64,000 nt of DNA from positions 152,370-216,369 of the IMG/VR virus record IMGVR_UViG_3300034104_003795; one strand, written 5' to 3'. The notes under the pieces are model-generated. The model made no database searches and had not been told where the DNA came from. It worked only from the letters and a program-made list of their open reading frames with translations. Each line of letters opens with the position of its first letter. Within the stretch, counting starts at the first letter, position 1. Below are positions 498-64,000 of this stretch, piece after piece. This DNA is from a virus. The position numbers and the translations under genes are program-made.

Positions 498-1008
498 CTG
501 TTTCTATATTTTTGTTTGCAACCAATCTCAATCTGAATACTATACCATTTATAACTCCGTCTTTTTTACTAGTCCAAGTTATATCACTATCTTTTACAAA
601 ACCATATCTCTCATAAAATAATACGGCTCTATAATTGAATGCCCTAACGGTTAAGAATAGATTCTCTGCATGTTGTGATTTACAATATTCTACAAACTCA
701 TCTAATACTTCTTTTGAAGCATTTGTTTTAGAGTGATTTGTTGCAATTTGATGAAGAATATAATCTCCTTTCTTTTTATATGTAGTAGCATTTTTACTCA
801 TTCTACCATGAGATTTATATTTTCCAAAAGTGATAACAACACCGTCTTGCAGTATCATACCACCCTTTTCAATATACTTTTCCAACTTAAAGCCTTGCTT
901 ATATAAGTGTGGAAATATTTCAGGATACAAATCAATAATAGTTGAAGCCTGATTTACAGCTTCAATCATTTCAGTTGTACCTTTTTCAGCTTTTACAAAA
1001 TTAAGCAT
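487..1008 (-). CDS. GNAT-family N-acetyltransferase
   Basis: This 173-aa protein has the length and late-domain pattern of GNAT acetyltransferases, which move an acetyl group from acetyl-CoA to an amine. The clearest signature is the C-terminal half: a hydrophobic strand (NLFLTVRAFN), then NYRAVLFYERYGFV, the usual 'N..A..FYE..GF' helix-strand near the acceptor site. The upstream CoA-binding loop (normally Q/R-x-x-G-x-G/A) is not obvious after ILHQIATNHS, so the fold is better supported than the activity. The ATG overlaps the TAA of the asparagine-synthase-like gene, so the two are probably co-translated. The substrate is unknown. Confidence 0.7.
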   Translation of the reverse strand: MLNFVKAEKGTTEMIEAVNQASTIIDLYPEIFPHLYKQGFKLEKYIEKGGMILQDGVVITFGKYKSHGRMSKNATTYKKKGDYILHQIATNHSKTNASKEVLDEFVEYCKSQHAENLFLTVRAFNYRAVLFYERYGFVKDSDITWTSKKDGVINGIVFRLRLVANKNIETVCI

Positions 1009-43369: not shown

Positions 43370-43813
43370 TTAAGGTTTAATTGGCCATTCAATATTAAAC
43401 GGGTCTATTTGGGTTGATATATCTCTTAAATTTTGTCTGTATTCTGTCCAAACTGATTTGATTTCAGTTGGTATGTCCGATAATTGAGTCCAATCACACT
43501 CTAATAATAGTTGATTTCTAATATCTCTAACTTCAGCCCATTTTTCTTCTATTCTCGTATTGATTAATTCCTGGCTTGCATCGGTTGCTACCCAATTTTG
43601 ATAATAAACTCCTTCAATTAATATAGGAGTTTCTTCGGACACTATTTTTGTGTAGTTATTTGGTTTAGGAGTCTGTCTTACTTCGTACATATCCCATGAT
43701 AATAAATCATTTTCAGTAAGTTCCGATGGGAACGTTACATTTTTATTATCCGTTTTTAAATTTTCAATAGAATACGGATATTGAATTTCGCTATTTATAA
43801 TTCTTAAATACAT
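43370..43813 (-). CDS. Tail fibre assembly chaperone-like protein
   Basis: This 147-aa protein ends with the signature of phage tail fibre assembly chaperones: EEKWAEVRDIRNQLLLECDWTQLSDIP ... VWTEYRQNLRDISTQIDPFNIEWPIKP (the R-x-x-L-x-x-x-DW ... YR--LRDI pattern). The N-terminal part is a beta-like fibre-related domain. It helps fold or oligomerise a fibre. It lies one base after the BspA-like gene and precedes the second fibre cluster, so its client could be either giant fibre. Confidence 0.85.
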   Translation of the reverse strand: MYLRIINSEIQYPYSIENLKTDNKNVTFPSELTENDLLSWDMYEVRQTPKPNNYTKIVSEETPILIEGVYYQNWVATDASQELINTRIEEKWAEVRDIRNQLLLECDWTQLSDIPTEIKSVWTEYRQNLRDISTQIDPFNIEWPIKP

Positions 43814-44719: not shown

Positions 44720-47700
44720 TTAACTAAAATTTTTACCACTTACAAATCCATAATATGTAGTACCACCATCATAAGTATAGAATACTAAAATATCAGTTCC
44801 AACAGAAGTTAGTGTTGGTGCACTTCCACCCGCCCAATCAACATTTACTGGCCAAGTTATTGTGTATGCTCCCGCATTTACAGTAACTAATGTAAATCCA
44901 AATGCGTTTGAAGCAGGTGCGTTACTAAATGCAACACTCGCATTACCATTAAATTGTCTTCTGAAGTTGTTACCAGTTGAAAGGTCTAATGTTACACTTC
45001 CACCGGTTCCTTGGTCAGAATATGTTTCTCTAAATGTATTTGCCGCAATAGATGTTGTTGATATTACATTACCAGTTACAGTTAATGTACTACCATTAAA
45101 TGTTAAATTTGATTCAACATTTGCTCCAAATGCAACAGCGTTGTAAGTTAATATACCATCTTCGGTATTACCAGATAATGGGAAACCAGATGTACCAGAT
45201 GTACCCGATGTAAATCCAGGTGCAGATGTACCAGATGTACCACTTTGTCCGGATGTACCAGATGTAAATCCTGGAGGTGTTGTACCAGATGTACCGGCTG
45301 TGCCACTTATTCCAGAAGTTCCTGATGTTCCAGATGTGAAGCCAGGAGGAGTTGTACCCGATGTACCAGCAGTACCACTTTCTCCAGAACTACCCGATGT
45401 ACCGGATGTGAAGCCCGGAGGCGTTGTACCCGATGTACCAGATGTACCAGTTTCACCAGATGTTCCCGATGTAAAGCCCGGAGGTGTTGTACCCGATGTA
45501 CCAGATGTTCCTGCTTCACCGGTTGCGTTTGTACCATCTTTACCAGATGTACCACTACTACCAAAATATGTTCCATCAAATCCAGAAGTTCCAGATGTAC
45601 CATTCGTACCTAATCCAGAAGTTCCAGATGAGCCACTCACACCAGATGTACCAGATACTCCAGAAGTACCACTACTTCCAAATAACGTACCATCTTTACC
45701 AGATGAACCAGATGTACCCGTAGTTCCACTCACACCAGATGTGCCGCTTTCTCCAGATGTACCAGAAGTACCACTTATACCCGATGTTCCAGATGAACCG
45801 AAATAAGTTCCATCAAATCCGGAAGAACCAGATGTACCAGATGACCCGGATGTACCCGATGTGCCACTTTGTCCAGATGTACCTGCAGTTCCACTTTCTC
45901 CAGAAGTTCCTGATGAACCAAAGAATGTTCCATCTTTACCAGAAGTTCCAGATGAACCAGAAGAACCCGCGCTACCGTCAGTTCCACTTATTCCAGAACT
46001 ACCCGATGTGCCGCTTTCTCCAGATGAACCAGAAGTTCCAGATGAACCAAAGTATGTTCCATCTTTACCAGAACTACCCGATGTACCACTTACACCAGAA
46101 GTACCACCCGTTCCTGCACTTCCCGATGAGCCAGTTGAACCAGATGAACCCGATGTGCCACTACTACCTGATGTTCCAGAAGAACCAAAGAAAGTTCCAT
46201 CTTTACCAGATGTACCACTTTCACCAGATGTACCAGAAGAACCAGATGTACCATCGGAACCTGATGTACCCGATGTGCCACTTTCTCCAGAAGTACCAGA
46301 AGAACCAGATGAACCTTCTGCCGAAGTACCAGATGAACCAGATGAGCCTCCGGTGCCACTAGTACCACTTTCACCAGAAGTACCACTACTTCCAGAACTT
46401 CCTGCTGAACCACTTTCTCCAGATGTACCTGATGTACCATGAGAACCAAAGAATGTTCCGTCTAAACCAGATGTACCCGAAGTACCATCTTGTCCAGATG
46501 AGCCAGATGAACCACTACTTCCTGATGTACCCGAAGTGCCATCTTGTCCAGATGTACCAGAAGAACCAAAGAATGTTCCATCTTTTCCACTTGTTCCAGA
46601 AGTACCATCGGTACCCGATATACCAGATGAACCAGATGAGCCGCTACTTCCTGATGTACCCGTTGTACCAGAACTTCCAAAGAATGTTCCATCCAATCCG
46701 CTTGTACCGGATGTGCCGCTTTCACCAGATGTTCCAGATGTTCCTGTTTCACCGGATGTACCATCGGTACCAGATGTGCCAGTTGAACCCGAACTACCAC
46801 TACTTCCAAAGAATGTTCCATCTACACCACTTGTTCCAGAAGAACCAGAAGTGCCAGATGTTGCTGATGTTCCAGAACTACCAGATGACCCGGATGTTCC
46901 CGAACTTCCAAAATATGTTCCATCTAAACCAGAACTTCCTGATGTACCAGATGAGCCACTGCTTCCAGAACTACCAGATGAACCACTACTTCCACTGCTT
47001 CCAGAAGTTGCAGATGTACCGGATGAACCAGAACTTCCAGATGTACCAAATGAACCATCGGTACCAGAACTACCCGATGAACCTGCAGTACCAGTTGAAC
47101 CAGATGTACCTGAAGTGCCATCTGCTCCTGAACTTCCACTACTTCCACTGCTTCCAGATGAACCAGATGAGCCAGTTGTACCAGATGAACCACTACTTCC
47201 ACTTGAACCACTACTTCCAGATGTGCCATCAGTACCAGATGTACCAGATGAGCCACTACTTCCAGATGTTCCATCAGAACCAGTTGTACCAGATGAGCCA
47301 CTGCTTCCAGATGAACCAGATGAACCGGCACTACCACTACTTCCTGAACTTCCACTTGAACCAGAGCTACCAGATGTACCTGCAGAGCCGTTCGTACCAG
47401 AAGTTCCTGCCGAACCAGATGAACCACTACTTCCAGAAGTTCCTGATGAACCATCTTCTCCGGATGTACCAGAGCTTCCCGATGTACCAGATGAACCTGC
47501 TGAACCAGTTGTACCAGAACTACCAGAAGTACCAGTTGTACCAGATGAACCACCACTACCATCGGAACCAGATGACCCGGATGTTCCAGAGCTTCCCGAT
47601 GTTCCTGCTGAACCAGCACTACCAGATGAGCCAGAGGTTCCTGATGTACCAGATGAACCCGCAGTACCACCAGTACCAGAAGATGCCGATGTACCACTAC

Positions 47701-50700
47701 TTCCCGATGTGCCTCCACTACCAGATGAACCAGAAGTTCCAGATGTGCCGCTTGTGCCAGAGGTTCCAGAACTTCCTGATGTGCCGGCAGTACCGCCACT
47801 ACCAGATGATGCGGATGTACCACTACTACCCGATGTACCAGAGGTTCCAGAGCTACCAGATGTTCCCGATGACCCGGATGTTCCAGATGAACCAGAACTT
47901 CCAGATGAACCAGATGTACCAGAAGTACCAGAAGTTCCTGCAGAACCAGTTGAACCAGAGCTACCAGATGAACCACCACTTCCAGATGAACCGGATGTAC
48001 CACTACTACCAGATGTTCCTGAACTACCCGATGAACCAGATGTGCCAGATGTGCCACTGCTTCCCGAAGTTCCCGATGAACCAGATGAACCGGATGTTCC
48101 AGATGAACCAGAACTACCATCTGAACCGGAAGTACCAGATGTGCCGCTCGTGCCGCTACTACCCGATGTTCCAGAAGAACCAGATGAACCAGATGTTCCA
48201 CTACTTCCAGAACTACCAGATGAGCCTGAACTTCCAGATGAACCAGAACTTCCAGATGTTCCTGTTGTTCCAGAACTTCCACTGCTTCCTGAACTACCAG
48301 ATGAACCAGATGAACCATCTATACCAGAACTTCCACTACTTCCCGAACTACCAGATGAACCGGAACTTCCAGATGTACCAGATGTTCCCGTTAATCCGGA
48401 TGAACCAGAAGAACCAGATGAACCACCTGTTCCAGATGAACCAACCGCAGCTGCTACGTTTCTATATCCTAATTTTTTAGTTATTGGGTCCCACGTTACA
48501 ACCTCATCATATGATGCCGATACGATTCCACCAAGCATTATACTACCACTAACACCTAAACTTCCACTAATTGTAAGTGATGCGTTTATTGTTTGATTTG
48601 TATTGATGTTTAAGAATGAAGATGTGTCAGTATTTGCAGAATTAAGTGCAAATGAAGCAGTTAATGCGTTTACAGAATAAGAAATACTATCCATTCCTAA
48701 CGGCCCATCTACACCGGTTGATAATATATAAGATGCCGTAAGTGAAGTTTGAGCCGCTCCACCGTTGATTGTTACTAATACGCCATCAGAACCAGATGAA
48801 ATCACATCTACCCCAGAACCACTAAAGTTTATCTTTGCAGTTTGAGATTTTACCAACGAACTGGTATGATAAATAAATAATTCAGTTCCACCACCACCAC
48901 CGTTTAATGCAAAAGATGCGGTTAATGCGTAAGAAGAACTTACAGCACTAAACACTGCCATTGATGATGTTTGATTGTTTCTCACATATTGTGATGAATC
49001 TCCCAATGAAGCCGATAATGATGCAAGTGATGCTGAATCAAATCCTTGAACGGATACAGCAACTTCAGCTCTACGTGCATATGATGCAGAAAGAACTTCA
49101 CCAAATACTCTATCACCAGGAATTGTACCATTAATCAATGAGCCACCACTACCAATCACAACATGTCCGGAAGTTAATCCAGCAAATTTAATTTGGATTG
49201 TATCTTCATCAATTGATTTAACAGTGCCAGGTATAATTTGGTCTTCCGAACCAGTTGCGTACACTTGAACCATAGGATATAAAATTCCTAAGTTGTGTAC
49301 AATTGTCAAATCGCTTACATTACTAAACGATACAGTTTCAGTTAATGATGTTTCAGGTTGAGGTACAAAATATCCTCTATCTTCATCATATCGTAAAATA
49401 TCGTATTCAGCACTTGCAGTAGGTCCTACTCCTTGAAAATTATATGTACCCAAGAACGAACCACTAATAGTTGGTGCAAATATTGTACCACTTGCAGATA
49501 TGTTATGTGCAGTTATATCATATACAACATCCAAATCACCATCTATTGATGCCGATGTACTTACTCTGAATCCTAAATCAGGAGATATTTCAGCGAATAC
49601 AGATCCGGATTTTAATATAGCCGTTTCAAATGCTAAATTAGCAATATTGATATTTCTTAATCCACTACCATCACCAACATATCTACTACCGGATTGAAGT
49701 ACAACATCAGAACCAGTTACAAATATTCCACCACTCACTGCTAATGAACCAGAGAATATTCTAACGGATGTATTTATTTCCAATCCTTTGTTTGGAGAAA
49801 TTACAGCTTCAACAGATCCAGATATAATTCTATCTAATTGTAAATCTTCTAATGCTTCGGCAGGGATATTAAATAATCCACTACCATCACCATCGTATCT
49901 TGCTGCCGTAATTGGTACGTTTACATCTAATTTAGTTGGGTCAATAATTGCTACACCAGAACCAGAGTTAATTTTAGCCAACTCTAAGTTTTCAATCGCA
50001 TCAGGTGGGATGTTAAATAATCCACCACCATCTCCAATAAATAAAGATGCAGTTAATGAACCGGTAATTGATACCGAACCGGTGAATTGTGAACCACTAC
50101 TAGCATTTACTATAAACTTATCACCACTAGCTACCGATGCCGTTGCCGAACCACTTGCTATCAATGGAGCTGCGGCTGCTTGTACATTTGTTAAAAATCT
50201 ACCATCACCAAATACAAATCCTCTTGCAGTTAAATCATCTGCGGTCAATGAACCACTAATAGAAACACTACCAGTAAATTGAGAACCAATGTCAGAACCA
50301 GTTGCAGCGGTTCTTACAATAAAATTATTACCACTTTGTACCGATGCAGTTGCAGAACCACTTGCTATTAAAGGTGCAGCTGTTGCTACTACATTGGTAA
50401 TAAATCTACCGTCCCCAAACAAGAAATCCGTTGCTCTGATGCTTCCACTAACTTCAATTGAACCGGTGAATTGAGAACCAATTTGAGAACCGGTTGCCGC
50501 CGTTGTTATTATAAATACATTACCACTTTGTACCGATGCAGTTGCAGAACCACTTGCTATCAATGGAGCTGCGGCCGCTACTACGTTTGTAATAAATCTA
50601 CCATCTCCAAATAAGAATTCAGTTGCTCTGATACTTCCACTAACTTCAACCGAGCCAGTGAATTGAGAACCAACTAGCCCACCGGTAAATGGAGTTATTA

Positions 50701-53700
50701 CTCTAAATCCATCAACTGGACTTACTGATGCGGTTACTGAACCGGATTTGATTTCGGTAGATATTAATGCATCTTCGGTTAATGCGGAACGAGGGATATT
50801 TCGTAGATAAGTACCTTCTCCATAATATGAAGAACCGGAACTTAAAAATAAACCACCACTTGCAATCTCATTAATATATAAACTTCCACTTATATCTACC
50901 GAACCAGTAAACCTAGACCCAATTTGTGTATCAAATATCAAATTTGGATTACCATCTACTATATTTATAACACCCGCCATTGATGAATGGAATTGGCAAT
51001 TATAATATAACGTATTTGGTGCACTTCCAGAAACCAAGAATGTTATTTGTCCAACATCTTCACCATTATTAGTAACCCAACTATTATAAAAATTAGTATC
51101 ACCAGTACCAGATGTTTCATTAATCCAAAATGGATGCCCACTTGCATTTATATTAAAAATATATTCATAATTTCTATGCAATGTAATTGTGGGATTTGAA
51201 CCACTTGCTGCTCCGCTAAATACATACTCACCACTTCCATTATTTATTACATTAAATACGTTATCAAATACTAAAGAAGATGTAAATGGTGTTTTAACTT
51301 TAAAACCATCAACTGGACTTACCGAAGCCGTTACTGAACCAGATTTAATTTCTGCAGATATTAATGCATCTTCAGTTAATGCAGAACGTGGTATATCAAA
51401 TAACAATCTACCAGATGAACTGATAAATGAACCACTCGCCATAAAGATGCTTCCACTAAATGTAGAACCACTACTTACCGATTGAACTAAAAATCCAAAT
51501 TCAGGAGTTACCGATGCAGTGATACTACCAGTTGCAATACGGAATACTTCTTCCGATAATGCGGAACGAGGTATATCAAATAATCCTTTACCACTACCAC
51601 TAAACATTGAAGATGAAACAGGTCCAGATGTATTTAAACTACCTGTAATTTGTGTATTTCCTATGAATGTTATTTCAGGTGCTATTTCTAAAAAATCAAC
51701 TATATTAAGTTGCCCTACCATTGATGAATGCAATTGGCAATTGTAATATAGAATATTAGGTGAACCAGAATACGGAGTGAATACAATATCCCCACTATCA
51801 TCACCATTATTCGTAATACTTTGACTTACATTATTAGATGTACCGGTTGAATTTATAAATTTAATCCATAAAGGATGTCCTACTGCATTAACATTAAATG
51901 TATATTCTACACCTCTTACCAATGTTAATGTTGGATTTGAACCGGATATTAATCCATTACTTACAACATATGCACTACTCCCATCGTTTGTTACATATAT
52001 TGTGTTATCTATTAATTCGGTAGGCAATGGTCTTGCCGAAGATGATACTACAAAACTACCATCAATTCTAGAATGAACATTTACTTCAAATCCGTTGTTA
52101 GGTGAAATAGATGCCGTTGCACTACCACTAAAGATTTTTGTTGAATCAATTGCTAAATTAGCTAATGTAATATTATTAAGGAATCTACCATCACCAATAA
52201 AATAAGAACCACTTGTTGAAGTTACATCACCTCTTACTAAAAGGCTTCCAGTTATATCAACGCTTCCGGTAAATTCAGAACCACTATCCGCAGATTGTAC
52301 TCTAAAACCAAATACAGGTGAAACTGATGCAGTTACACTACCACTTGCTATTTTATTTGGAGCAAATGATAAAGCCGATTCAGGTATATCAAATAAATTT
52401 CTACCAGAACCACTAAACGATGAACCACTTTGTAGTTCTATATTTCCATGTGCAAATACACTACCACTTATATTAATTGAGCCGGTAAATTGAGAACCCA
52501 ACAAAGTAGATTCAACAATAAATCCAAAATCAGGCAATGCCGAAGCGGTTACCGAACCAGATGCAATTCTAAATATTTCTTGAGATAATGCTGAGAATGG
52601 TATATCGGTTAATCCAGCACCACTACCACTAAATACCGATGCAGAAACACCTGATTTAAATAATGATGATTGATTTACTTTTAAAGAACCAGTTACAACT
52701 AAATTAGATTTTATATCAGTTGAACCCGTTACAATTAAATAATCTCTAACGGTTACACCGGTATTTACTAAAAACCCTTTATCAGGAGAAATAGATGCTG
52801 TTGCTGAGCCACTAAAGATTTTAGAAGTATCTAAATCAGATAATGCCGCTACAGGTATATCAAATAATTTTTTACCACTACCACTAAAAGACGAACCAGT
52901 TATTACTCTTACCTCTCCATAAAATGTAGAACCACTTTCTATTGAAGTTACTACGAATCCTTGATTTGGAGCCACCGAAGCGGTTACACTACCACTAACA
53001 ATTTTCTCACTAAATAATGCATCAGGAGCAAGTGCTGTTCTCGGTATATTAAATAATCTTTCTCCACTACCACTAAAAGATGAGCCAGATGATATTTCTA
53101 CACTTCCACTTACTAATATTGATGATGAAAATTCTGCTCTATTAGCCCCTTCTAATCTAAATCCATATACAGGAGAAACAGATGCAGTTACAGATCCAGA
53201 TACAATTCTCGTTCCTTCTATTGATGGTACATTTCTTAATCTACTACCATCACCTTCAAAAGAACCGCTAAATTCAGGTGAAAATATTCTTTCCGCAGTA
53301 AGTGAACCAGATACTCTAACACTACCGGTTATATCACTACCTCTTTGTAAAGATTCAACTCTAAATCCATAATCAGGAGAAACCGATGCAGTTACACTAC
53401 CACTTGCAATTCTATATGCATCACCGGTAAATGCCGATTGCGGAATATCAAATAATCCTCTACCACTACCAGAGAAGAATGAACCACTTCCTAAAAATAC
53501 GCTACCACTTACCCCTAAACTTCCTGTTATATTAGTTTTTCCAATAAATGTAATTTCGGCAGGTATTTCAATTGCATTCACAACATTGATAGCCCCTTGC
53601 ATTGCACTATGAAACTGACAAGTGTAGTATAAATTACTAGGTGTTAATTCATCTAAACTAAATATAATAGTTCCACTATCAGTTCCATTATTCGTAACAC

Positions 53701-55909
53701 CAGTGTTGTATGCACCATCCGTTCCGGTTTGAATACTTCCAGATTTTATCCAAAACGGATGCCCACTTGCATTTATATTAAAGGTATATGTAACACCTCT
53801 TACTAATGTTAATGTTGGATTTGATGCACTTATTGCGTTACTAAACACATATGCACTAAATCCATTATTTGTTACATCAAATACGGTGTTTAACGATTGA
53901 CTTGGAATTGCATAGTTTGAAGATGAAACAATCATACTTCCACTAAACTTACTATAAACGTTTACATTAAATCCCTTTACCGGGTCAATAGATGCGGTTG
54001 CAGAACCAGAGAAAATTAAATTAACATCTAAATTAGAAATAGCTGAACGAGGAATATTAAATAACTTCTCACCACTACCACTAAAGAATGAACCAGATGA
54101 TAAGAAAACACTACCACTAAAAGTAGAACCACTTGCAACTGATTTTACAACGAATCCATCCACATCGGTTACAGATGCAGTTACACTACCACTTGCAATT
54201 AAATTTGAAATCAATGCATCGGGTGCTAAAGCTGTTCTAGGGATGTTAAATAATCTTTCACCACTACCACTAAACGATGAACCAGAAGTTAGTGATATAT
54301 TACCACTTACAATTAAAGAACCGGTAAATTGAGAACCACTATCCGGTGATATTACTCTAAATCCTTCATCAGGACTAACAGATGCGGTTACACTACCACT
54401 TGCTATACGAAATACTTCTTCAGATAACGCAGAACGAGGAATATCAAATAACCCTCTACCACTACCACTAAATTGAGATGCCGAAACCGAACCAGTTACT
54501 ACTAAATAACCCGCTATTGTAGCAGATGTATTAACTTCTAATCCCTTATCAGGTGATATTGATGCGGTTGCAGAACCACTTGCAATTCTAGGTGCAACAA
54601 GAGATGGTACGTTTGTTAATTTACTACCATCGCCCACAAAGAAAGATGCGGTTACGGCACCATTGACGTTTACCGAACCACTTATATCAACACTTCCGGT
54701 AAATTGTGAACCCCTATCTACAGATTCTACTCTAAATCCAAAATTAGGTGAAACAGATGCAGTTACACTACCACTTGCAATTCTAAAAGGTGCAAAAGAA
54801 AGTGCGGATTCTGGAATATCAAATAGAAATCTACCAGAACCACTAAAGAATGAACCGGATGCTAATTTTATACTACCAGTAAATTCAGAACCATTTGCTT
54901 CCGATTCAACCCTAAATCCAAATACAGGAGAAACGGATGCCGTTACCGAACCGCTTGCTAATTTTGTAGCTTCGGGTAAATTAAATAGGCCTTTACCATC
55001 TCCAGAGAATGAACCAGTAAATGAGCCTGTTGCAGAAGATGCAGTAAATTGATTTATAGTGGCCGTTAATGAAAATATAGAACCAGATTCTACTATAACG
55101 GATCCAGTAGTTAAACGTAAACTACCTGTAATTTGCACACCACCTAAAAATGATGCACTTTGTGCGTTTATTATTAAAATATCACCAAGAACCGATGCTG
55201 TCACCGAGCCACTTGCTAATATTGCAGATTCAATTGCAGATTGTACATTTCTTAAATCTCTACCGTCTCCAAAAAATGAGCCCGTAAATGATGAAGATAT
55301 TGAAGAACCGGTTGCTTCATTAAATCTTAAATAATTTCCAATTTCAACCGAACCTGTAAATTCTTGTTTATCACTTAATTCATCACCAAATTTATTTGAA
55401 CCAGATGAATATATTACAGATGATGAAATTATACTAACAACTAATTGTTCAGCATATATTGATTTTGATACATATAAATTTTCTGCAATTGTTGTATCAA
55501 CATTTATTTGTAATCCAAAATTAGGAGAAATTGATGCAGTTGCAGAACCACTAGCTAAACGTATTGTGTCAGGTAAATTAAATAAACCAGCACCATCGCC
55601 AAAATAAGAACCAGAGAATGAACCAGTATAAGAACCCGTAAAACTACCACTTAATGATTCAGCACTACCAGTAAAAGAACCTGTAAATTGTCCCGTTACT
55701 CTATCTAAATCTAAACTTCTTACGAATCCTCTATTACCTTGGTCATCTGAAACTACAATAGCTGGTGAACCAGAAAGTGAAGCACTAAAATTTGGAACAC
55801 CCAAATTTGGTTCAACTTGAGATAAATCAATAAATTGATACCTGTCTTGTGTTACGTTTTTTGGGGATACTACCCTTACCCTACCTGATAATAGATTACT
55901 AATTGCCAT
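44720..55909 (-). CDS. Giant tail fibre (3729 aa) with cupredoxin-like domains and collagen-like region
   Basis: Residues 1-2150 carry some 30 repeats of the form RIASGSVTASVSP--GF-V ... GSQFTGS ... SGSGRGLFDIPRSAL, probably a beta-helical shaft. Three cupredoxin-like domains interrupt it around residues 670-785, 1300-1410 and 1550-1660. Residues about 2490-3580 are a Gly-Ser/Thr collagen-like region, interspersed with DGT-FFGSSGTSG units and, near its end, five TPPGFTSGTSG-type units. The last 150 residues are a small beta domain (GYYGFVSGKNFS type end) with no S74 chaperone. At nearly 11.2 kb it is the largest gene in the window. Two late-type motifs precede it. Confidence 0.92.
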   Translation of the reverse strand: MAISNLLSGRVRVVSPKNVTQDRYQFIDLSQVEPNLGVPNFSASLSGSPAIVVSDDQGNRGFVRSLDLDRVTGQFTGSFTGSAESLSGSFTGSYTGSFSGSYFGDGAGLFNLPDTIRLASGSATASISPNFGLQINVDTTIAENLYVSKSIYAEQLVVSIISSSVIYSSGSNKFGDELSDKQEFTGSVEIGNYLRFNEATGSSISSSFTGSFFGDGRDLRNVQSAIESAILASGSVTASVLGDILIINAQSASFLGGVQITGSLRLTTGSVIVESGSIFSLTATINQFTASSATGSFTGSFSGDGKGLFNLPEATKLASGSVTASVSPVFGFRVESEANGSEFTGSIKLASGSFFSGSGRFLFDIPESALSFAPFRIASGSVTASVSPNFGFRVESVDRGSQFTGSVDISGSVNVNGAVTASFFVGDGSKLTNVPSLVAPRIASGSATASISPDKGLEVNTSATIAGYLVVTGSVSASQFSGSGRGLFDIPRSALSEEVFRIASGSVTASVSPDEGFRVISPDSGSQFTGSLIVSGNISLTSGSSFSGSGERLFNIPRTALAPDALISNLIASGSVTASVTDVDGFVVKSVASGSTFSGSVFLSSGSFFSGSGEKLFNIPRSAISNLDVNLIFSGSATASIDPVKGFNVNVYSKFSGSMIVSSSNYAIPSQSLNTVFDVTNNGFSAYVFSNAISASNPTLTLVRGVTYTFNINASGHPFWIKSGSIQTGTDGAYNTGVTNNGTDSGTIIFSLDELTPSNLYYTCQFHSAMQGAINVVNAIEIPAEITFIGKTNITGSLGVSGSVFLGSGSFFSGSGRGLFDIPQSAFTGDAYRIASGSVTASVSPDYGFRVESLQRGSDITGSVRVSGSLTAERIFSPEFSGSFEGDGSRLRNVPSIEGTRIVSGSVTASVSPVYGFRLEGANRAEFSSSILVSGSVEISSGSSFSGSGERLFNIPRTALAPDALFSEKIVSGSVTASVAPNQGFVVTSIESGSTFYGEVRVITGSSFSGSGKKLFDIPVAALSDLDTSKIFSGSATASISPDKGFLVNTGVTVRDYLIVTGSTDIKSNLVVTGSLKVNQSSLFKSGVSASVFSGSGAGLTDIPFSALSQEIFRIASGSVTASALPDFGFIVESTLLGSQFTGSINISGSVFAHGNIELQSGSSFSGSGRNLFDIPESALSFAPNKIASGSVTASVSPVFGFRVQSADSGSEFTGSVDITGSLLVRGDVTSTSGSYFIGDGRFLNNITLANLAIDSTKIFSGSATASISPNNGFEVNVHSRIDGSFVVSSSARPLPTELIDNTIYVTNDGSSAYVVSNGLISGSNPTLTLVRGVEYTFNVNAVGHPLWIKFINSTGTSNNVSQSITNNGDDSGDIVFTPYSGSPNILYYNCQLHSSMVGQLNIVDFLEIAPEITFIGNTQITGSLNTSGPVSSSMFSGSGKGLFDIPRSALSEEVFRIATGSITASVTPEFGFLVQSVSSGSTFSGSIFMASGSFISSSGRLLFDIPRSALTEDALISAEIKSGSVTASVSPVDGFKVKTPFTSSLVFDNVFNVINNGSGEYVFSGAASGSNPTITLHRNYEYIFNINASGHPFWINETSGTGDTNFYNSWVTNNGEDVGQITFLVSGSAPNTLYYNCQFHSSMAGVINIVDGNPNLIFDTQIGSRFTGSVDISGSLYINEIASGGLFLSSGSSYYGEGTYLRNIPRSALTEDALISTEIKSGSVTASVSPVDGFRVITPFTGGLVGSQFTGSVEVSGSIRATEFLFGDGRFITNVVAAAAPLIASGSATASVQSGNVFIITTAATGSQIGSQFTGSIEVSGSIRATDFLFGDGRFITNVVATAAPLIASGSATASVQSGNNFIVRTAATGSDIGSQFTGSVSISGSLTADDLTARGFVFGDGRFLTNVQAAAAPLIASGSATASVASGDKFIVNASSGSQFTGSVSITGSLTASLFIGDGGGLFNIPPDAIENLELAKINSGSGVAIIDPTKLDVNVPITAARYDGDGSGLFNIPAEALEDLQLDRIISGSVEAVISPNKGLEINTSVRIFSGSLAVSGGIFVTGSDVVLQSGSRYVGDGSGLRNINIANLAFETAILKSGSVFAEISPDLGFRVSTSASIDGDLDVVYDITAHNISASGTIFAPTISGSFLGTYNFQGVGPTASAEYDILRYDEDRGYFVPQPETSLTETVSFSNVSDLTIVHNLGILYPMVQVYATGSEDQIIPGTVKSIDEDTIQIKFAGLTSGHVVIGSGGSLINGTIPGDRVFGEVLSASYARRAEVAVSVQGFDSASLASLSASLGDSSQYVRNNQTSSMAVFSAVSSSYALTASFALNGGGGGTELFIYHTSSLVKSQTAKINFSGSGVDVISSGSDGVLVTINGGAAQTSLTASYILSTGVDGPLGMDSISYSVNALTASFALNSANTDTSSFLNINTNQTINASLTISGSLGVSGSIMLGGIVSASYDEVVTWDPITKKLGYRNVAAAVGSSGTGGSSGSSGSSGLTGTSGTSGSSGSSGSSGSSGSSGIDGSSGSSGSSGSSGSSGTTGTSGSSGSSGSSGSSGSSGSSGTSGSSGSSGTSGSSGTSGTSGTSGSDGSSGSSGTSGSSGSSGTSGSSGTSGTSGSSGSSGTSGSSGTSGSSGSGGSSGSSGSTGSAGTSGTSGTSGSSGSSGSSGTSGSSGTSGSSGTSGTSGSSGTSASSGSGGTAGTSGSSGTSGTSGTSGTSGSSGSGGTSGSSGTSASSGTGGTAGSSGTSGTSGSSGSAGSAGTSGSSGTSGSSGSDGSGGSSGTTGTSGSSGTTGSAGSSGTSGSSGTSGEDGSSGTSGSSGSSGSAGTSGTNGSAGTSGSSGSSGSSGSSGSAGSSGSSGSSGSSGTTGSDGTSGSSGSSGTSGTDGTSGSSGSSGSSGSSGTTGSSGSSGSSGSSGSSGADGTSGTSGSTGTAGSSGSSGTDGSFGTSGSSGSSGTSATSGSSGSSGSSGSSGSSGSSGTSGSSGLDGTYFGSSGTSGSSGSSGTSATSGTSGSSGTSGVDGTFFGSSGSSGSTGTSGTDGTSGETGTSGTSGESGTSGTSGLDGTFFGSSGTTGTSGSSGSSGSSGISGTDGTSGTSGKDGTFFGSSGTSGQDGTSGTSGSSGSSGSSGQDGTSGTSGLDGTFFGSHGTSGTSGESGSAGSSGSSGTSGESGTSGTGGSSGSSGTSAEGSSGSSGTSGESGTSGTSGSDGTSGSSGTSGESGTSGKDGTFFGSSGTSGSSGTSGSSGSTGSSGSAGTGGTSGVSGTSGSSGKDGTYFGSSGTSGSSGESGTSGSSGISGTDGSAGSSGSSGTSGKDGTFFGSSGTSGESGTAGTSGQSGTSGTSGSSGTSGSSGFDGTYFGSSGTSGISGTSGTSGESGTSGVSGTTGTSGSSGKDGTLFGSSGTSGVSGTSGVSGSSGTSGLGTNGTSGTSGFDGTYFGSSGTSGKDGTNATGEAGTSGTSGTTPPGFTSGTSGETGTSGTSGTTPPGFTSGTSGSSGESGTAGTSGTTPPGFTSGTSGTSGISGTAGTSGTTPPGFTSGTSGQSGTSGTSAPGFTSGTSGTSGFPLSGNTEDGILTYNAVAFGANVESNLTFNGSTLTVTGNVISTTSIAANTFRETYSDQGTGGSVTLDLSTGNNFRRQFNGNASVAFSNAPASNAFGFTLVTVNAGAYTITWPVNVDWAGGSAPTLTSVGTDILVFYTYDGGTTYYGFVSGKNFS
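45170..48450 (-). repeat. Collagen-like Gly-Ser/Thr coding repeat of the 3729-aa fibre
   Basis: About 1090 codons of imperfect 9-nt units encoding G-S-S, G-T-S and related triplets. The first half is nearly pure. The second half has periodic GTFFGSSGTSG-type insertions, then Pro-containing GTTPPGFTSG units. Confidence 0.9.
50945..51255 (-). other. Cupredoxin-like domain 3 of the giant fibre
   Basis: Beta-rich domain FNVINNGSGEYVFSG... The complete type 1 copper ligand set is visible: His1592 (ASGHPFWIN), Cys1638, His1641 and Met1644 (NCQFHSSMAG). Confidence 0.75.
51690..52010 (-). other. Cupredoxin-like domain 2 of the giant fibre
   Basis: Beta-rich domain with His1345 (AVGHPLWIK), Cys1391, His1394 and Met1397 (NCQLHSSMVG), the same ligand spacing as domains 1 and 3. 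Confidence 0.75.
53575..53890 (-). other. Cupredoxin-like domain 1 of the giant fibre
   Basis: Beta-rich domain FDVTNNGFSAYVFS... with His717 (ASGHPFWIK), Cys764, His767 and Met770 (TCQFHSAMQG). Confidence 0.75.
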
Positions 55910-56919: not shown

Positions 56920-59900
56920 TTATATTTGTAGTGCCAATGAGAACGGAGTTACTAATGAGAATAGAGATTTACTAAATGTTCTACCCACAAGAGTACCAGT
57001 TGCTTGATTAATACTTAGGCCAGTACCAATTCTAAAGTCACCATCTTGGTTACCGGAAGTGAAGAATATTCTACCACCACCCAATTCGGTAATTTCAAAC
57101 GCCGGATTTGCCACACCACTACCACCCTGATTTGGAGGAAGTGCTTTAAACGTCACACCACTACCATTATAAGAGTAGTCAATACCAGTTGCCACAATCA
57201 ATGAACCAAATGCTTCTAATGGTGCACCCGCTGCTATAAACTCTGCTCTTGTTCTTAAATATCTATTAGTTTCAAGAGTTTCTAATAACTGGTCTCTAGT
57301 CACTGCAATTGCACTTCCATATTGACCATCGTAGTATGAAGATGCTGCTCTAATTCCTCTCTCATTTCCACCATATAATAAGTCAGTAACACACGCATCT
57401 ACAATAAATCCAGTATCACGTGAACAACTAGCCTCATTATATACTAAATATGGAAATGCTCCATTTGTATATCCAATTGCTCGTTGTTTTAATTCTTCCT
57501 TACCAAGTTTTAATCTTTCTGCCGCCTGTCTTCTTTTAGTTGATGGTGCTAAATAACTTAATAAAGTATTTGCAACTATCTTTTCAGAAAGTCCTCTTGC
57601 GAAGTTAATACCATCTACCGTTTGTTTCTTTTGTCCATTATTATCACCATAACTATCCACTATTGCTACTGATGGGAATTTATAATAGTAAGAACCCGCT
57701 TCAATACTTCTTTCATTACCACCATACACTAAGTCAGTTCTAATTGCATCTATAATAAACCCTAAATCTCTAGAACAACTTACTTCGTTATATTTCAAAT
57801 TACTCCAAGAAGAACTTAAGAATGTTATAGTTTCCTTTTGTATCAATTCTTTATTATCTGTCAACAATTTAGCGGTTGTTAGTAAAGATGCCGAAGGTAC
57901 TAAATATGTTGGATTGGTTATTACCTTTTTAGATACCTTTCCAGCGTATCTGATACCAGTAAGCGTTGGGTCTAATTGGTTTTTAGTTGATGGAACACCT
58001 GCGTTAATAGCGTTAGAAGGATATAAGTAATAATACTGTCCTGCTATCAAACTTCTTTCTTGTCCACCATAAAGTACATCAGTTGCCGCTGCATCTATTA
58101 GGTATCCAACATCTCTCTTACAAGTAGTTTCATTGTAATATACACTACTCCAAGATGAAGATACATATTTAATTGTTTCTTCTGCTACAAATGCTTTATT
58201 CTTTCTTAATAGGTCAAATGATGCAGATGCCTCTAATGATGCAGTTACAAATACTATGTTTTGCGCAACTTTTTGTGCCAATCTACTTGCGTAGTTTATA
58301 CCATCAACTGTTTGTCCTAATTGACCAAGTCCATCACCATCTCCTTCAACAATTGCTAAAGATGGATATAGATAATAGAACTCTCCATTCAATACAGTTC
58401 TCTCATTACCACCATATAATAAATCGGTAGTAACACCATCTAATATATAGCCAACATCTCTCTTACATTTATCTTTATCATACTCAAATGTACTCCAGCT
58501 AGCAGTTAAGTAAGCTAGGGTTTCATTTTGTATAAACTCTCTGTTATTTCTTAACAAATTAACCGATGCTGATATTATTTGTGATGCAGTTACATAAGTT
58601 AATGATGTAGCTACATTTTTAGAAGTTTGTCCTGCGTAATTAACACCAGTTAATGTTGGTTGTAATTGTGAACCTTGTGCTTGAGATGGATATAAGTAAT
58701 AGAACACCCCAGCATTTGTACTTCTTTCATTACCACCATATAATAAATCGGTAGAAACTGCATCTATGATATGTCCAACATCTCTCTTACAAGTTACCTC
58801 ATCATAAGATGCTGTGCTCCAAGAAGAAGATATGTACGCGATAGTTTCGTTTTGAATAAACTCTCTATTGTTTCGTATCAATTCGTATGATGCTGATACA
58901 TTTGCCGATGCGGTTACATAAGTTACATTTTGTACTATATTTTGTGCCAAACGGCTAGCATAGTTAATACCATCCAATGTTTGGTTTAGTTGTGCACCTT
59001 GTGCTTGAGATGGATATAAGTAATAGAACACTCCATTGAATATTGATGCGGAATTTGCATTAAATAATAAGTCTTCGGCAGAACCACTCAATATAAACCC
59101 TAAATCACGTCTACATTTACTCTCGTCATAAGATGCGGTTGACCAAGATGAACTCAAATATGCAATACTTTCCGATACTATGAATCCAATATTTGCTTTT
59201 AATAAATTATATGCGTATATTACATTAGTATCAACGGATGCAGTTGTATATGGAATTAAAGTTGGTAATGAACCAGTACCATTTCTTACTATATCTGTTA
59301 CAATAGAAATAGATGCCGATATTGCATTAGCTTCGGTAATAGTTCCAAATAACGATGATGTTATAAATTGTTGAGCGTTGGTTACTTTAATATTTGCTAA
59401 CGTATTAGGTATAACAGAAGGTGTCCCTATCAATATACTACTAATAGATGCCGTTGTTATTCTAGCTGCGTACTTAATTGCCTCTACCGTTTCTACAACT
59501 TGCGAACCAGACCCATTAGCTTGAGATGGGAATTCATAATAGTAATCTGCATTCTTTCTACTTCTTTCATTTCCACCATAAAGTAAATCAGTTGCCACAC
59601 CATCGATAATATATCCTAAATCTCTATAACATTTACTTTCACTATAATCTAAATTAGGGTATTTAACATTTACAAATGCGATACTTTCACTTTGTATGAA
59701 TCGTTTGTTAGCCTTTATTAAATCATAAGTATATTGAACTTCTAATGATGATGTAAATATCTCTTTATTAACAACTACATTCATAGCTGTTCCTTTTGCG
59801 TATCTTACACCAGTTAATGTTGGTTCTAATTGTGAATCGGTAGCTTGTGATGGGAAATCATAATAATATCTTCCAGCTACAACACTTCTTTCGTTTCCGC

Positions 59901-62900
59901 CATATAAAAGGTCAGTTGCTACTGCATCTATAATGTATCCAATATCTCTTTTACAAGTTATTTCATTATAATCAAAATCACCCCAAGAAGAAGATAGATA
60001 CGCAATTGATTCACTTTGTATAAATCCTTTGTTAGCTCTTAATGAATTCCAAGATGCTGATGTTGGTTGGTTAATTGATGCCGATATGTGTGTAAACGGA
60101 ATGTTCAACACCACCTTCTCTGCCAATCCACTTGCGTATTTAATTGCAGTGATTGTTTGGTCTAATTGTGAACCAGTTGCTTGTGATGGGAAATCAAAAT
60201 AGAACTTACCATTAAACAATGATGCCGAATTACCACCATATAAAAGGTCAAATGCAGAACCACTAAGGATTCCAGTCAAATCTCTTTCACATTTACTTTG
60301 TGTATATTCAAACCCACTCCAAGATGAACTCATATACGCAATAGTTTCATCAACTATAAATTTAGAGTTACTTACTAATAAGTTATATGCTGAATTTATC
60401 TTTGCATTTGTATTTGCTATCGGGAATGTTGATGGTCTATATGCAATTGAGCTCGTACCATTATTTAATAACACATCGATTACTAATGATAATGATGCTG
60501 ATATCAATTTACCTTGCAATCTTCCTGCCGCACTTCCACTTATTAATTGTGGAGTATCAGTTACTTTAATACTTGCAGATGTATTTGATACAATTGTTGG
60601 CAGAACTGATGTTCCATTTTCAATTACATTTAGTATCAAATCAAATCCACTTGCAATCTTATTAGTATCAAACGATGATGCGGATATGTCTTGTCTTATA
60701 GGATTTGCATTTGTTACTTTTAATGATGAAGATGTACTTGCTACTAATGTAGGTAATACACTTACTCCATTTTTAAGAACGTCTACAACAGTACCATAAG
60801 AAGAACTTACATTTGTAATTTGAATTGCCAAATCATATGAACCAGTTCCAATTATTTGTTCTTGTGAACTTATATGTAATAAAGTTGGTGTAGATAATTC
60901 AAATCCATAATTATAGTTTCTTGCCAATGAATCCGGTACAAATGCAACACCATTTTCAATAATATCAGCCACATGCTTAAATGATGATGTGATAATATCC
61001 AATTCAGCTCCACTTGCCGATATTGATGATGAGTATTGAGTAGTATTAGTTATTTTGATTAAACCATTGCCATTTTCAACGATAGTTGGTATTGTAGATA
61101 ATCCATTTTCAATAATATTAGTAACTAACGCAAATGATGAACTAATTTGATTTACTTCGTTTATACTTGCACTCAACGGTGTTGTATATTGTGTTGTATC
61201 AGTTACTTTAATATTTCCATCGGTATTTGTTGTTAATGCCGGTGAATTTAATTTAATATTTTGTGCTATTGCTTTAGCTAATACTTTAGCGTATTCAACA
61301 CCTTCCACAGTTTCTCTAACTTGCGTACTCTTTGTTGCTAAAGATGGATATAAATAATAATATTGTCCAGCTATAACACTTCTTTGATTTCCACCGTAGA
61401 AAGTATCAGTTATAACTGCATCTAAAATATATCCTACATCACGTCTACATTTTTCTCTTAAATAAACTAAATTAGGGAAGAATGCATCTATGTATTGTAC
61501 AGTTTCGTTTTGTATAAATCTTTTGTTCTGTCTTAATAAATTAACCGATGATGTTACAAATCCAGTTGGTGCTATCAATACTTTATTTGATATTACATTT
61601 TGTGCAGTACCAGCTACATATTGTATTCCATCAAGTGTAGGTCCTTTTTGAGTTTCGGTAGTTGGTGAAATAGAACCAGTCAGAATTGCTGCAGATGGGT
61701 ATAGATAATAGTACTCACCTGCTTTAGAACTTCTTTCGTTTCCACCATATAAAAGGTCAGTTCTTACTGCATCTATAATATATCCAATATCTCTCTTACA
61801 AGTAGTTTCGTTATAAGAGAATCCATCATCACCACTCCAAGACGAAGATAAGTAAGCGATTGATTCACTTTGTATAAACTTCTTATTATCCGTTAATAAA
61901 TTAAATCCAGTTAATTCAGATGTTGTTGGAGATTGTAATAATATATTTGCTACAATCTTTTCAGTAATTCCTTTAGCGTATTTAATACCATCTAAAGTTT
62001 GATTCAATTGTCCACCGGTATCACCATCGTTACCTACGGTTGCCAATGAAGGATATAAGTAATAATACTCTCCTGCCTCAGCCACTCTTTCGTTTCCACC
62101 GTAAAGAATATCAGTTGCTACTGCGTCTAATATATAACCAATATCTCTCTTACAAGTAGTTTGGTTATAAGGGAATGTACTCCAAGAAGAAGATAGATAT
62201 GCAATAGTTTCATCTTGTATAAATGATTTATTATTGAATATCAATTCGTATGCTGAAAGATTTGAATTAGATGCTGATGCAAATGTTGAATTCTTTAATA
62301 TCTTATCAGTTAAACCTTTCGCATGTTTGATTCCACTTAATGTTGCCCCTAATTGAGATGTTGTTGCTTGTGATGGATATTCATAATAGAATACACCGGC
62401 ATTTATACTTCTCTGATTACCGCCATAAACTATATCGGTTGTTACCGCGTCTAAAATATGGCCCACATCTCTCTTACAAGTTAATTCATTGTAAGATGTT
62501 GTACTCCAACTAGCAGATACATAACTTATAACTTCGTTTTGTATAAATTCTCTATTATTATAAATTAATTCTTTTGCTTGTAATTTATTTTGAGATACTT
62601 TAGTAAATGTATTTCCTCTTAAAATTTTGAATGCAATATCTCTAGCATATTCAATACCAGTAACAGTCTCTTGTATTTGTGAACCAGTTGCTTCAGATGG
62701 GTATTTATAATAGAATACTCCAGCATTTATTGTTCTTTCATTTCCACCATATAATAAGTCAGTAGAAACTGCATCTATAATATGTACTATATCTCTTTTA
62801 CAAGTTGATTCAACGTATTGATGTGTACTCCAAGATGAACTTATGTAAGGTATTACTTCATTCTTAATAAGTTCTTTATTATTAACTAATAAACTATACG

Positions 62901-64000
62901 CATCTTTAATTTGCGCCGATTGAGTTACAAATAAAGTATTTAATACTATTTTTTGTGCTAAACGGCTTGCGTAGTTGATACCATCCAATGTTTGGTTTAA
63001 TTGTGCACCCTGCGCTTGAGATGGGAATTGATAATAATAAACACCATTGAATACCGATGCTGAATTTGCATTAAATAATAAGTCTTCAGCTGAACCACTC
63101 AATATAAATCCTAAGTCACGTTTACATTTACTTTCATCGTAAGATGCAGTTGACCAAGAAGAACTTAAATATGCAATACTTTCCGATACTATGAAATCTA
63201 AATTATTTTTTAGAATAGTATAAGCCGCTATTACATTTGAAGATGATATTGATGATGTATATAAAGTTACAATCGGTAATGAACCCGTTCCATTTGCTAT
63301 TATATTTGTTACAATAGAAATTGATGCAGATATTGCATTAGCTTGCGTTTGTGTTGCCGGTGTTCCTCCTAAATATTGAGTAGCATCGGTTACTTTAATA
63401 TTATTTACATTTGAAGTAATAGTAGGTAATGAACCAGTACCATTTTCTAATATGTTTATAATTGTATCAAAACTTGCAGATATATTTCTTGCCAACGAAG
63501 ATGATATAATTACCGAAGATGTATATTGATTTGTATCTGTTATTTTTACTAACCCGTCAACATTTTTTATCAACGTAGGTAAAGAACCAGTTCCATTTTC
63601 AACAATATCCAAAACAATATTAAAATTATTATTTGAAGATGTAAGATATGTGGATGATATTGATGCGGTTGTTATGTAACTATTTGTAGTAGTTCGTTTA
63701 ATTAAAGAATTTACATTTGTTACAATAGTTGGAATTGAACCTGTGCCATTTTCTACAATATCAAGTACGATATCAAATCCAGTAGTTACTTTTGCCTTTT
63801 CAGAATTAGAAGGAGTTATTGATGATGTTATTTGTGTACCACCAATAAAGTTTATACCTCTATTTGTATTTTTAACAATAGTTGTTGGTATTGAACCAGT
63901 TCCGTTTGATACGATATTAAGTATATTACCAAATGAAGCTGATACAATAGATTTATCGTTTGTTACTACTGATATAGATGATGTAATTTGTTGAGCGTTA
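56920..64000 (-). CDS. Very long repeat virion protein with about 15 Cys modules, 5' end outside the window
   Basis: The frame is open from the window edge to the stop at 56920 (at least 2360 codons). There is no stop codon between 63612 and 64000, so an internal TTG at 63612 is not the real start. The protein has about 15 modules of 75-130 residues with the core N--FIQ-ETIAYLSSSW ... C-RD-GYIIDAV-TDLLYGGNERS--AG-YYYLYPS. Between clusters lie shorter units ending NGTGSLPTLI. Similar modules occur in marine T4-like phage structural proteins. Each module keeps one Cys in C-RD. The C-terminal 120 residues form a beta domain (FKALPPNQGGSGVANPAFEITELGGGRIFFTSGNQDGDFRIG). Confidence 0.88.
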   Translation of the reverse strand, partial: NAQQITSSISVVTNDKSIVSASFGNILNIVSNGTGSIPTTIVKNTNRGINFIGGTQITSSITPSNSEKAKVTTGFDIVLDIVENGTGSIPTIVTNVNSLIKRTTTNSYITTASISSTYLTSSNNNFNIVLDIVENGTGSLPTLIKNVDGLVKITDTNQYTSSVIISSSLARNISASFDTIINILENGTGSLPTITSNVNNIKVTDATQYLGGTPATQTQANAISASISIVTNIIANGTGSLPIVTLYTSSISSSNVIAAYTILKNNLDFIVSESIAYLSSSWSTASYDESKCKRDLGFILSGSAEDLLFNANSASVFNGVYYYQFPSQAQGAQLNQTLDGINYASRLAQKIVLNTLFVTQSAQIKDAYSLLVNNKELIKNEVIPYISSSWSTHQYVESTCKRDIVHIIDAVSTDLLYGGNERTINAGVFYYKYPSEATGSQIQETVTGIEYARDIAFKILRGNTFTKVSQNKLQAKELIYNNREFIQNEVISYVSASWSTTSYNELTCKRDVGHILDAVTTDIVYGGNQRSINAGVFYYEYPSQATTSQLGATLSGIKHAKGLTDKILKNSTFASASNSNLSAYELIFNNKSFIQDETIAYLSSSWSTFPYNQTTCKRDIGYILDAVATDILYGGNERVAEAGEYYYLYPSLATVGNDGDTGGQLNQTLDGIKYAKGITEKIVANILLQSPTTSELTGFNLLTDNKKFIQSESIAYLSSSWSGDDGFSYNETTCKRDIGYIIDAVRTDLLYGGNERSSKAGEYYYLYPSAAILTGSISPTTETQKGPTLDGIQYVAGTAQNVISNKVLIAPTGFVTSSVNLLRQNKRFIQNETVQYIDAFFPNLVYLREKCRRDVGYILDAVITDTFYGGNQRSVIAGQYYYLYPSLATKSTQVRETVEGVEYAKVLAKAIAQNIKLNSPALTTNTDGNIKVTDTTQYTTPLSASINEVNQISSSFALVTNIIENGLSTIPTIVENGNGLIKITNTTQYSSSISASGAELDIITSSFKHVADIIENGVAFVPDSLARNYNYGFELSTPTLLHISSQEQIIGTGSYDLAIQITNVSSSYGTVVDVLKNGVSVLPTLVASTSSSLKVTNANPIRQDISASSFDTNKIASGFDLILNVIENGTSVLPTIVSNTSASIKVTDTPQLISGSAAGRLQGKLISASLSLVIDVLLNNGTSSIAYRPSTFPIANTNAKINSAYNLLVSNSKFIVDETIAYMSSSWSGFEYTQSKCERDLTGILSGSAFDLLYGGNSASLFNGKFYFDFPSQATGSQLDQTITAIKYASGLAEKVVLNIPFTHISASINQPTSASWNSLRANKGFIQSESIAYLSSSWGDFDYNEITCKRDIGYIIDAVATDLLYGGNERSVVAGRYYYDFPSQATDSQLEPTLTGVRYAKGTAMNVVVNKEIFTSSLEVQYTYDLIKANKRFIQSESIAFVNVKYPNLDYSESKCYRDLGYIIDGVATDLLYGGNERSRKNADYYYEFPSQANGSGSQVVETVEAIKYAARITTASISSILIGTPSVIPNTLANIKVTNAQQFITSSLFGTITEANAISASISIVTDIVRNGTGSLPTLIPYTTASVDTNVIYAYNLLKANIGFIVSESIAYLSSSWSTASYDESKCRRDLGFILSGSAEDLLFNANSASIFNGVFYYLYPSQAQGAQLNQTLDGINYASRLAQNIVQNVTYVTASANVSASYELIRNNREFIQNETIAYISSSWSTASYDEVTCKRDVGHIIDAVSTDLLYGGNERSTNAGVFYYLYPSQAQGSQLQPTLTGVNYAGQTSKNVATSLTYVTASQIISASVNLLRNNREFIQNETLAYLTASWSTFEYDKDKCKRDVGYILDGVTTDLLYGGNERTVLNGEFYYLYPSLAIVEGDGDGLGQLGQTVDGINYASRLAQKVAQNIVFVTASLEASASFDLLRKNKAFVAEETIKYVSSSWSSVYYNETTCKRDVGYLIDAAATDVLYGGQERSLIAGQYYYLYPSNAINAGVPSTKNQLDPTLTGIRYAGKVSKKVITNPTYLVPSASLLTTAKLLTDNKELIQKETITFLSSSWSNLKYNEVSCSRDLGFIIDAIRTDLVYGGNERSIEAGSYYYKFPSVAIVDSYGDNNGQKKQTVDGINFARGLSEKIVANTLLSYLAPSTKRRQAAERLKLGKEELKQRAIGYTNGAFPYLVYNEASCSRDTGFIVDACVTDLLYGGNERGIRAASSYYDGQYGSAIAVTRDQLLETLETNRYLRTRAEFIAAGAPLEAFGSLIVATGIDYSYNGSGVTFKALPPNQGGSGVANPAFEITELGGGRIFFTSGNQDGDFRIGTGLSINQATGTLVGRTFSKSLFSLVTPFSLALQI

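Follow-up and report, generated by a model that had tools for sequence, protein, structure and literature searches.

Cupredoxin-like domains with a predicted type 1 copper ligand set in a giant phage tail fibre and in related virion proteins

A giant tail fibre encoded in the window (the whole stretch of DNA analysed, 64,000 nucleotides of a 274 kb virus record) carries three cupredoxin-like domains, D1 to D3, of about 107 aa each. Structure prediction, fold searches and profile alignments support the conclusion that these domains are genuine cupredoxins with an intact His-Cys-His-Met set of the type 1 style, forming a predicted metal site. We give about an even chance to the reading that they are copper-clamped, decorative or adhesive beta-sandwiches with metal sites at fixed points on the shaft of the giant fibre. 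An earlier note on this DNA had proposed that the fibre may bind copper for stability, for redox chemistry at the host surface, or for exploiting host metal-uptake receptors, and its interpretation overall is partly supported by the results described below.

The fibre and its three domains

The fibre has beta-rich shaft repeats (aa ~80-2480) and, starting at aa ~2490, a collagen-like GXX region (Pfam Collagen, E 1.6e-99); its C-terminal domain is virion-structural, and its ORF matches PHROG tail fibre families, with phrog_19200 at the C-terminus. The gene sits in a contractile-tail (myovirus) block that includes a sheath, a tube-like gp19, a T4-type baseplate protein and a tail assembly chaperone. 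The nearest match of the sheath is to a Microcystis phage; psbA is absent from this phage, so that a cyanobacterial host is no more than a possibility for it. The coordinates of these and other features of the window are listed in Table 1.

Table 1. Features of the window, all on the minus strand
Feature	Position	Strand	Description
Giant tail fibre gene	44720..55909	-	3729 aa; ORF call
Cupredoxin-like domain D1	53564..53887	-	aa 675-782; AlphaFold2 pLDDT 95.7 and Foldseek
D1 putative ligand His717 codon	53759..53761	-	invariant in 54-copy alignment
D1 putative ligand Cys764 codon	53618..53620	-	invariant in 54-copy alignment
D1 putative ligand His767 codon	53609..53611	-	invariant in 54-copy alignment
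D1 putative ligand Met770 codon	53600..53602	-	invariant in 54-copy alignment
Cupredoxin-like domain D2	51683..52003	-	aa 1303-1409; putative ligands H1345, C1391, H1394, M1397; common family profile
Cupredoxin-like domain D3	50942..51262	-	aa 1550-1656; putative ligands H1592, C1638, H1641, M1644; common family profile
Neighbouring tail protein	56920..63999	-	open frame of 4187 aa, continuing past the window; holds a fourth copy
Phage tail assembly chaperone-like protein	43370..43813	-	two genes downstream of the fibre; Pfam PF16778, E 2.1e-15
Contractile tail sheath	30517..32853	-	PF04984 and PF17482; phrog_23, E 3e-74
Second giant fibre	33467..42676	-	3069 aa; collagen repeats and C-terminal S74 chaperone domain; no cupredoxin copy
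Complete phage tmRNA	18705..19091	-	ARAGORN; Rfam RF00023 full length, 83 bits; predicted tag DVELSTWTFDDVMSFMGADLAVAA, unusually long
Asparagine synthase (glutamine-hydrolysing type)	1001..2458	-	phage-borne; adjoins an acetyltransferase

The three copies reported in the earlier note were found again, with coordinates agreeing to within about 15 bases, and the motifs (GHPFW...CQFHSAM in D1, GHPLW...CQLHSSM in D2 and GHPFW...CQFHSSM in D3) bear out its statement that His, Cys, His and Met are all kept in all three. The spacing, which had been described as constant, is identical for the Cys-x2-His-x2-Met part and varies slightly between the first His and the Cys (47, 46 and 46 residues). The whole fibre of 3729 aa contains three Cys, each a putative ligand of D1, D2 or D3, and a chance origin of the motifs is excluded because these sole three Cys fall on ligand positions. 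Similarly, 36 of 53 distinct fibre ORFs have no Cys beyond the ligand Cys. D1 and D2 lie about 600-630 aa apart in related fibres, and D2 and D3 about 242 aa. Copies at the same position are 73% identical across phages, compared with 59% between positions, indicating that the duplications are older than these phages; sequence comparison thus suggests old duplications in which the metal-ligand set has been kept. Ligand losses in other fibres were found at the first position (loci L075, L081, L149 and L151), with the later copies intact.

The AlphaFold2 model of D1, obtained with 54 aligned relatives, showed eight strands at the pLDDT given in Table 1, and among the matches listed by Foldseek against the PDB, all 50 were cupredoxin-fold copper proteins, including rusticyanin, the cupredoxin domain of NirK, AcoP, plastocyanin, multicopper oxidases and a pseudoazurin with the amicyanin ligand loop, at moderate global TM scores of about 0.5-0.6. 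The prediction and the fold search, therefore, agree on a Greek-key beta-sandwich like that of known cupredoxins, as the earlier note had expected. In the D1 model, strands 33-39 and 45-48 are joined by a loop in which His43 is predicted; Cys90 is the last residue of strand 85-90, and His93 and Met96 are in the loop preceding strand 97-103. This would be the canonical cupredoxin topology. Hence, as judged by the predicted topology, the fold does not set the four residues far apart, which is the arrangement that the earlier note had named as a refutation of its proposal.

The ligand register was supported by a broad family profile, in which the four residues fall on H37/C84/H87/M92 of plastocyanin and which ranked NirK, amicyanin (checked as 1aac) and plastocyanin (1plc) above all 900 shuffled sequences. 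Together with the strand positions in the model, this places His-Cys-His-Met at the predicted canonical positions. The 54-copy alignment compared with a single plastocyanin by hhalign gave a low probability and the wrong register, whereas the broader profile gave the right one. The best sequence match in the PDB was NirK (9cck, E 0.055), with the C-H-M loop aligned, and the PDB search with a single sequence returned noise only. Pfam matches were below the curated cut-offs, both for PF00127 Copper-bind (12.9 bits for D1 compared with 21.2, E 0.15; no match for D2 and D3) and for PF25489, the At5g54830-like domain (22.3-24 bits compared with 27), and no model for the domain was found in NCBIfam. 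Plastocyanin-type sites usually have Asn after the first His, where the phage domain has Pro.

Joint retention and loss of the ligands

We compared 327 distinct copies from 287 loci in which all four ligand columns were readable. The complete His-Cys-His-Met set was present in 296 of the 327, a frequency inflated by pattern searches that partly used ligand-containing peptides. The Cys and the second His were both present in 299 copies, both absent in 28 (19 safely aligned and 9 remote with unsure alignment) and never found one alone, in a set whose copies share kinship and in which some ligand-less ones were sought on purpose. This coupling is not explained by the bias of the ligand-peptide searches. 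Apart from these paired losses, the variants differ at one ligand each: the axial Met, kept in 297 of the 299 copies having the Cys and the second His, is replaced by Gln or Ser in the other two, and the first His can be replaced by Asn. The Gln variant, at locus L085, is as in stellacyanin. All four ligands were invariant in 54 diverse copies with a mean column identity of 63%, and their codons vary synonymously while the residue stays fixed (TGT 158/TGC 138; CAT/CAC about 70/30). In a tree built without the ligand columns, from a short alignment and with weak support, the intact state changes at least 9 times, about six of these being multi-ligand losses. Furthermore, among 14 close relatives that lack the ligands, conservation at or above 93% persists at 18 of the 22 other conserved positions, and the Cys and the second His are at 0%. 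Judged from these sequences, the ligands are retained together or lost together, the behaviour to be expected for a metal site, which along with the alignment to the plastocyanin ligands upholds the assignment of a type 1 ligand set in the earlier note. The pattern is what a selected metal site should look like if it is lost whole once no longer needed.

A fourth cupredoxin-like copy lies at 219669-219992 of the record, 3.3 kb past the window edge, in the neighbouring tail protein of 4187 aa. It has Tyr, Ser, Arg and Met at the four positions, so that three of the four ligands are lost, and it is still predicted to be folded (pLDDT 93.3, determined with an identical copy from a related contig) and still matches cupredoxins. 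The predicted structure thus indicates that the cupredoxin fold is independent of the ligands, so that something else must account for their being retained in D1 to D3; by the same token, the metal would be unneeded for folding, which makes it less likely that its role is purely structural. The earlier note had argued that full retention speaks against a structural relic, and this argument is upheld, the ligand-less fourth copy being what a relic looks like. The same neighbouring protein, in locus L177 (record 215000-224500), is built of numerous ~110-aa repeats, each having one Cys and a motif that resembles YNE-TCKRDVGYIIDAV-TDLLYGGNER.

These results bear on the possibility that there is no metal at all and that the conserved residues are structural, or that the lone Cys cross-link fibre chains. 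Such a reading would fit the single Cys of each domain, in a fibre that is presumably a trimer, and the predicted folding of the ligand-less copies, but we consider it very unlikely, since a Cys without the second His, or the reverse, was never seen in the 327 copies, since the loss is specific to the ligand columns and spares other conserved residues, and since three Cys in a trimer cannot fully pair. Cross-linking by the lone Cys and a pure relic were both rejected on the all-or-none ligand pattern.

If the site is a metal site, its occupant in vivo could be zinc or a different metal, taken up in the host cytoplasm at assembly and serving purely for stability. Virion assembly takes place in the cytoplasm, which has zinc available but very little copper, and cupredoxin sites can take zinc in vitro; the co-conservation itself points to a metal site and not to which metal. 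Nevertheless, copper is the metal for which this ligand set, axial Met included, is used, Met is a poor zinc ligand, and the near-complete retention of the Met beside the Cys and the second His makes this alternative unlikely.

Distribution and possible role of the metal

The module was found in 325-338 annotated phage records, nearly all of them Synechococcus and Prochlorococcus phages, along with one lake Actinomycetia phage and a few marine viruses; in contrast, the sheath of this phage matches 2626 records, including hundreds of enteric phages. In cyanophages, the module is often fused to a baseplate gp9/gp10-like protein: in syn9 and its relatives it forms the C-terminal domain of a protein whose N-terminus matches T4 gp9/gp10, with all four ligands present in syn9. 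Further contexts are a virion-region protein of a T7-like cyanophage and an S8 protease, in which the module comes last. Most of the cellular relatives, from 58 loci, are secreted or anchored (including lipid-anchored) proteins of Bacteroidota, Myxococcota, Acidobacteria and marine Alphaproteobacteria, in which the module stands alone or follows CHRD, DUF7282 or starch-binding domains; nearly all of the relatives have the four ligands. Thus, all contexts of the module are extracellular or on the virion surface. No copper or respiratory genes were found among the gene neighbours of the small cellular versions, and a plasmid search found the domain on none. In the BFVD, protein structures predicted for giant eukaryotic viruses match the cupredoxin fold; these matches (A0A481Z7Q7, A0A481YVH3 and others) are small stand-alone Pithovirus/Marseillevirus proteins. 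The baseplate wedge subunit adjoining the gp9 fusion in syn9 and relatives (L162:3325-6315, L170, L171) bears a YHYH domain and holds further, very divergent cupredoxin-like copies (GHPMQF ... YYFCRYHRHMSG).

The fold, the ligand register and the co-conservation and co-loss of the ligands were computed, and from them we infer copper binding and a role for the metal. The predicted site would most likely bind copper, which would probably be acquired after virion release from the cytoplasm, a compartment with little free copper. The metal may then tie the loop of the first His to the Cys-His-Met loop at one pole of the beta-sandwich, and the tied loops could, with less certainty than the copper binding itself, make a rigid and robust knob. 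Such knobs might decorate the fibre or the baseplate and make weak contact with the host surface or with glycans, by analogy with the Ig-like domains of other phages. In this scheme, the metal would mainly serve structure or adhesion, rather than carry electrons over a long range.

A redox copper centre is less supported; as the phage adsorbs or enters, such a centre would exchange electrons at the host surface, for instance with host cupredoxins, cytochromes or reactive oxygen. The ligand set and the short Cys-x2-His-x2-Met loop match amicyanin, an electron carrier, the relatives are concentrated in phages of photosynthetic hosts, a stellacyanin-like variant of the axial Met exists, and there is weak similarity to a domain of the plant protein At5g54830. 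However, the fibre shows no redox partner or electron route, the three sites are hundreds of residues apart on the shaft, the module is elsewhere placed after CHRD domains, starch-binding domains and a protease with no redox theme, and the cellular neighbours described above offer no link to copper or respiration, so that we hold this role to be improbable. Still more doubtful, and likewise less supported than a structural or adhesive role, is the use of host metal-uptake receptors, which would extend to copper the Ferrojan (Trojan) horse hypothesis put forward for iron in phage tails. Presenting or releasing the metal would be difficult for a buried type 1 site, the domains are in the shaft or at the baseplate (gp9) and not at the fibre tip, and receptor evidence was not found, even though the hosts are aquatic, each fibre has several sites, and HxH iron sites in T4 gp37 and an Alteromonas phage fibre provide a precedent (PMC11705849).

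The preferred reading of copper-clamped knobs can be extended, at somewhat less than an even chance, to tailed phages of aquatic bacteria and above all to cyanophages, which may carry true blue-copper domains as parts of the virion; each fibre would then have several coppers, and each gp9 chain of the baseplate probably one. Loading with copper once the host has lysed could tune virion stability or adsorption, and the copper strongly bound in virions could form a pool in water that has gone unrecognised. Iron, zinc and calcium are the best-known metals of phage tails. A cupredoxin whose type 1 site is under selection, present in tails and baseplates across hundreds of cyanophages, would, if true, be a new kind of virion metal site as far as the literature was searched. 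Cyanophages with the module are among the most abundant viruses of lakes and oceans, and the natural ligand-less paralogues are ready-made controls for metal tests.

Comparison with known systems

In a literature search with most subscription papers and all bioRxiv preprints outside its scope, nothing was found on cupredoxins with phage baseplates or tails, nor on plastocyanin-like domains with phage tails and copper. The present case is apparently a new context for a known fold, with the metal apparently undescribed for the cyanophage module. The nearest annotated family is PHROG 677 ('baseplate wedge tail fiber protein connector', cyanophages), which D1 to D3 match over its last ~105 positions (E 7e-24). 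As this match covers only positions 307-411 of 412, the domain is shared and not the protein: the gp9/gp10 part is absent from this fibre, and the database entry mentions no metal or cupredoxin.

Other predicted or proposed metal sites of phage tails differ in kind. HxH iron sites have been described in T4 gp37 and, as six proposed sites, in the fibre of Alteromonas phage R22Y (PMC11705849). These fibres have repeated metal sites, as this fibre putatively does, but their iron is held by the fibre trimer, whereas the phage cupredoxin is a self-contained domain with Cys-His2-Met. The YHYH domain (Pfam PF14240) of jumbo-phage tails is predicted to bind zinc (PMC7824862); it likewise represents a predicted metal site in tail and baseplate proteins and shares proteins with cupredoxin-like copies, but it is a different family from the cupredoxin module and a predicted zinc hydrolase.

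Among cellular proteins, rusticyanin, AcoP and the cupredoxin domain of three-domain NirK are the best fold matches; they are respiratory periplasmic proteins, whereas the phage domain is in a tail fibre. Amicyanin, plastocyanin and pseudoazurin have in common with the phage domain the cupredoxin fold and the four ligands in register, and the Cys-x2-His-x2-Met loop of amicyanin is identical in spacing. They differ in being single-domain blue copper proteins, whereas the phage domain, with its predicted metal site, belongs to a separate sequence family and is repeated within a virion protein.
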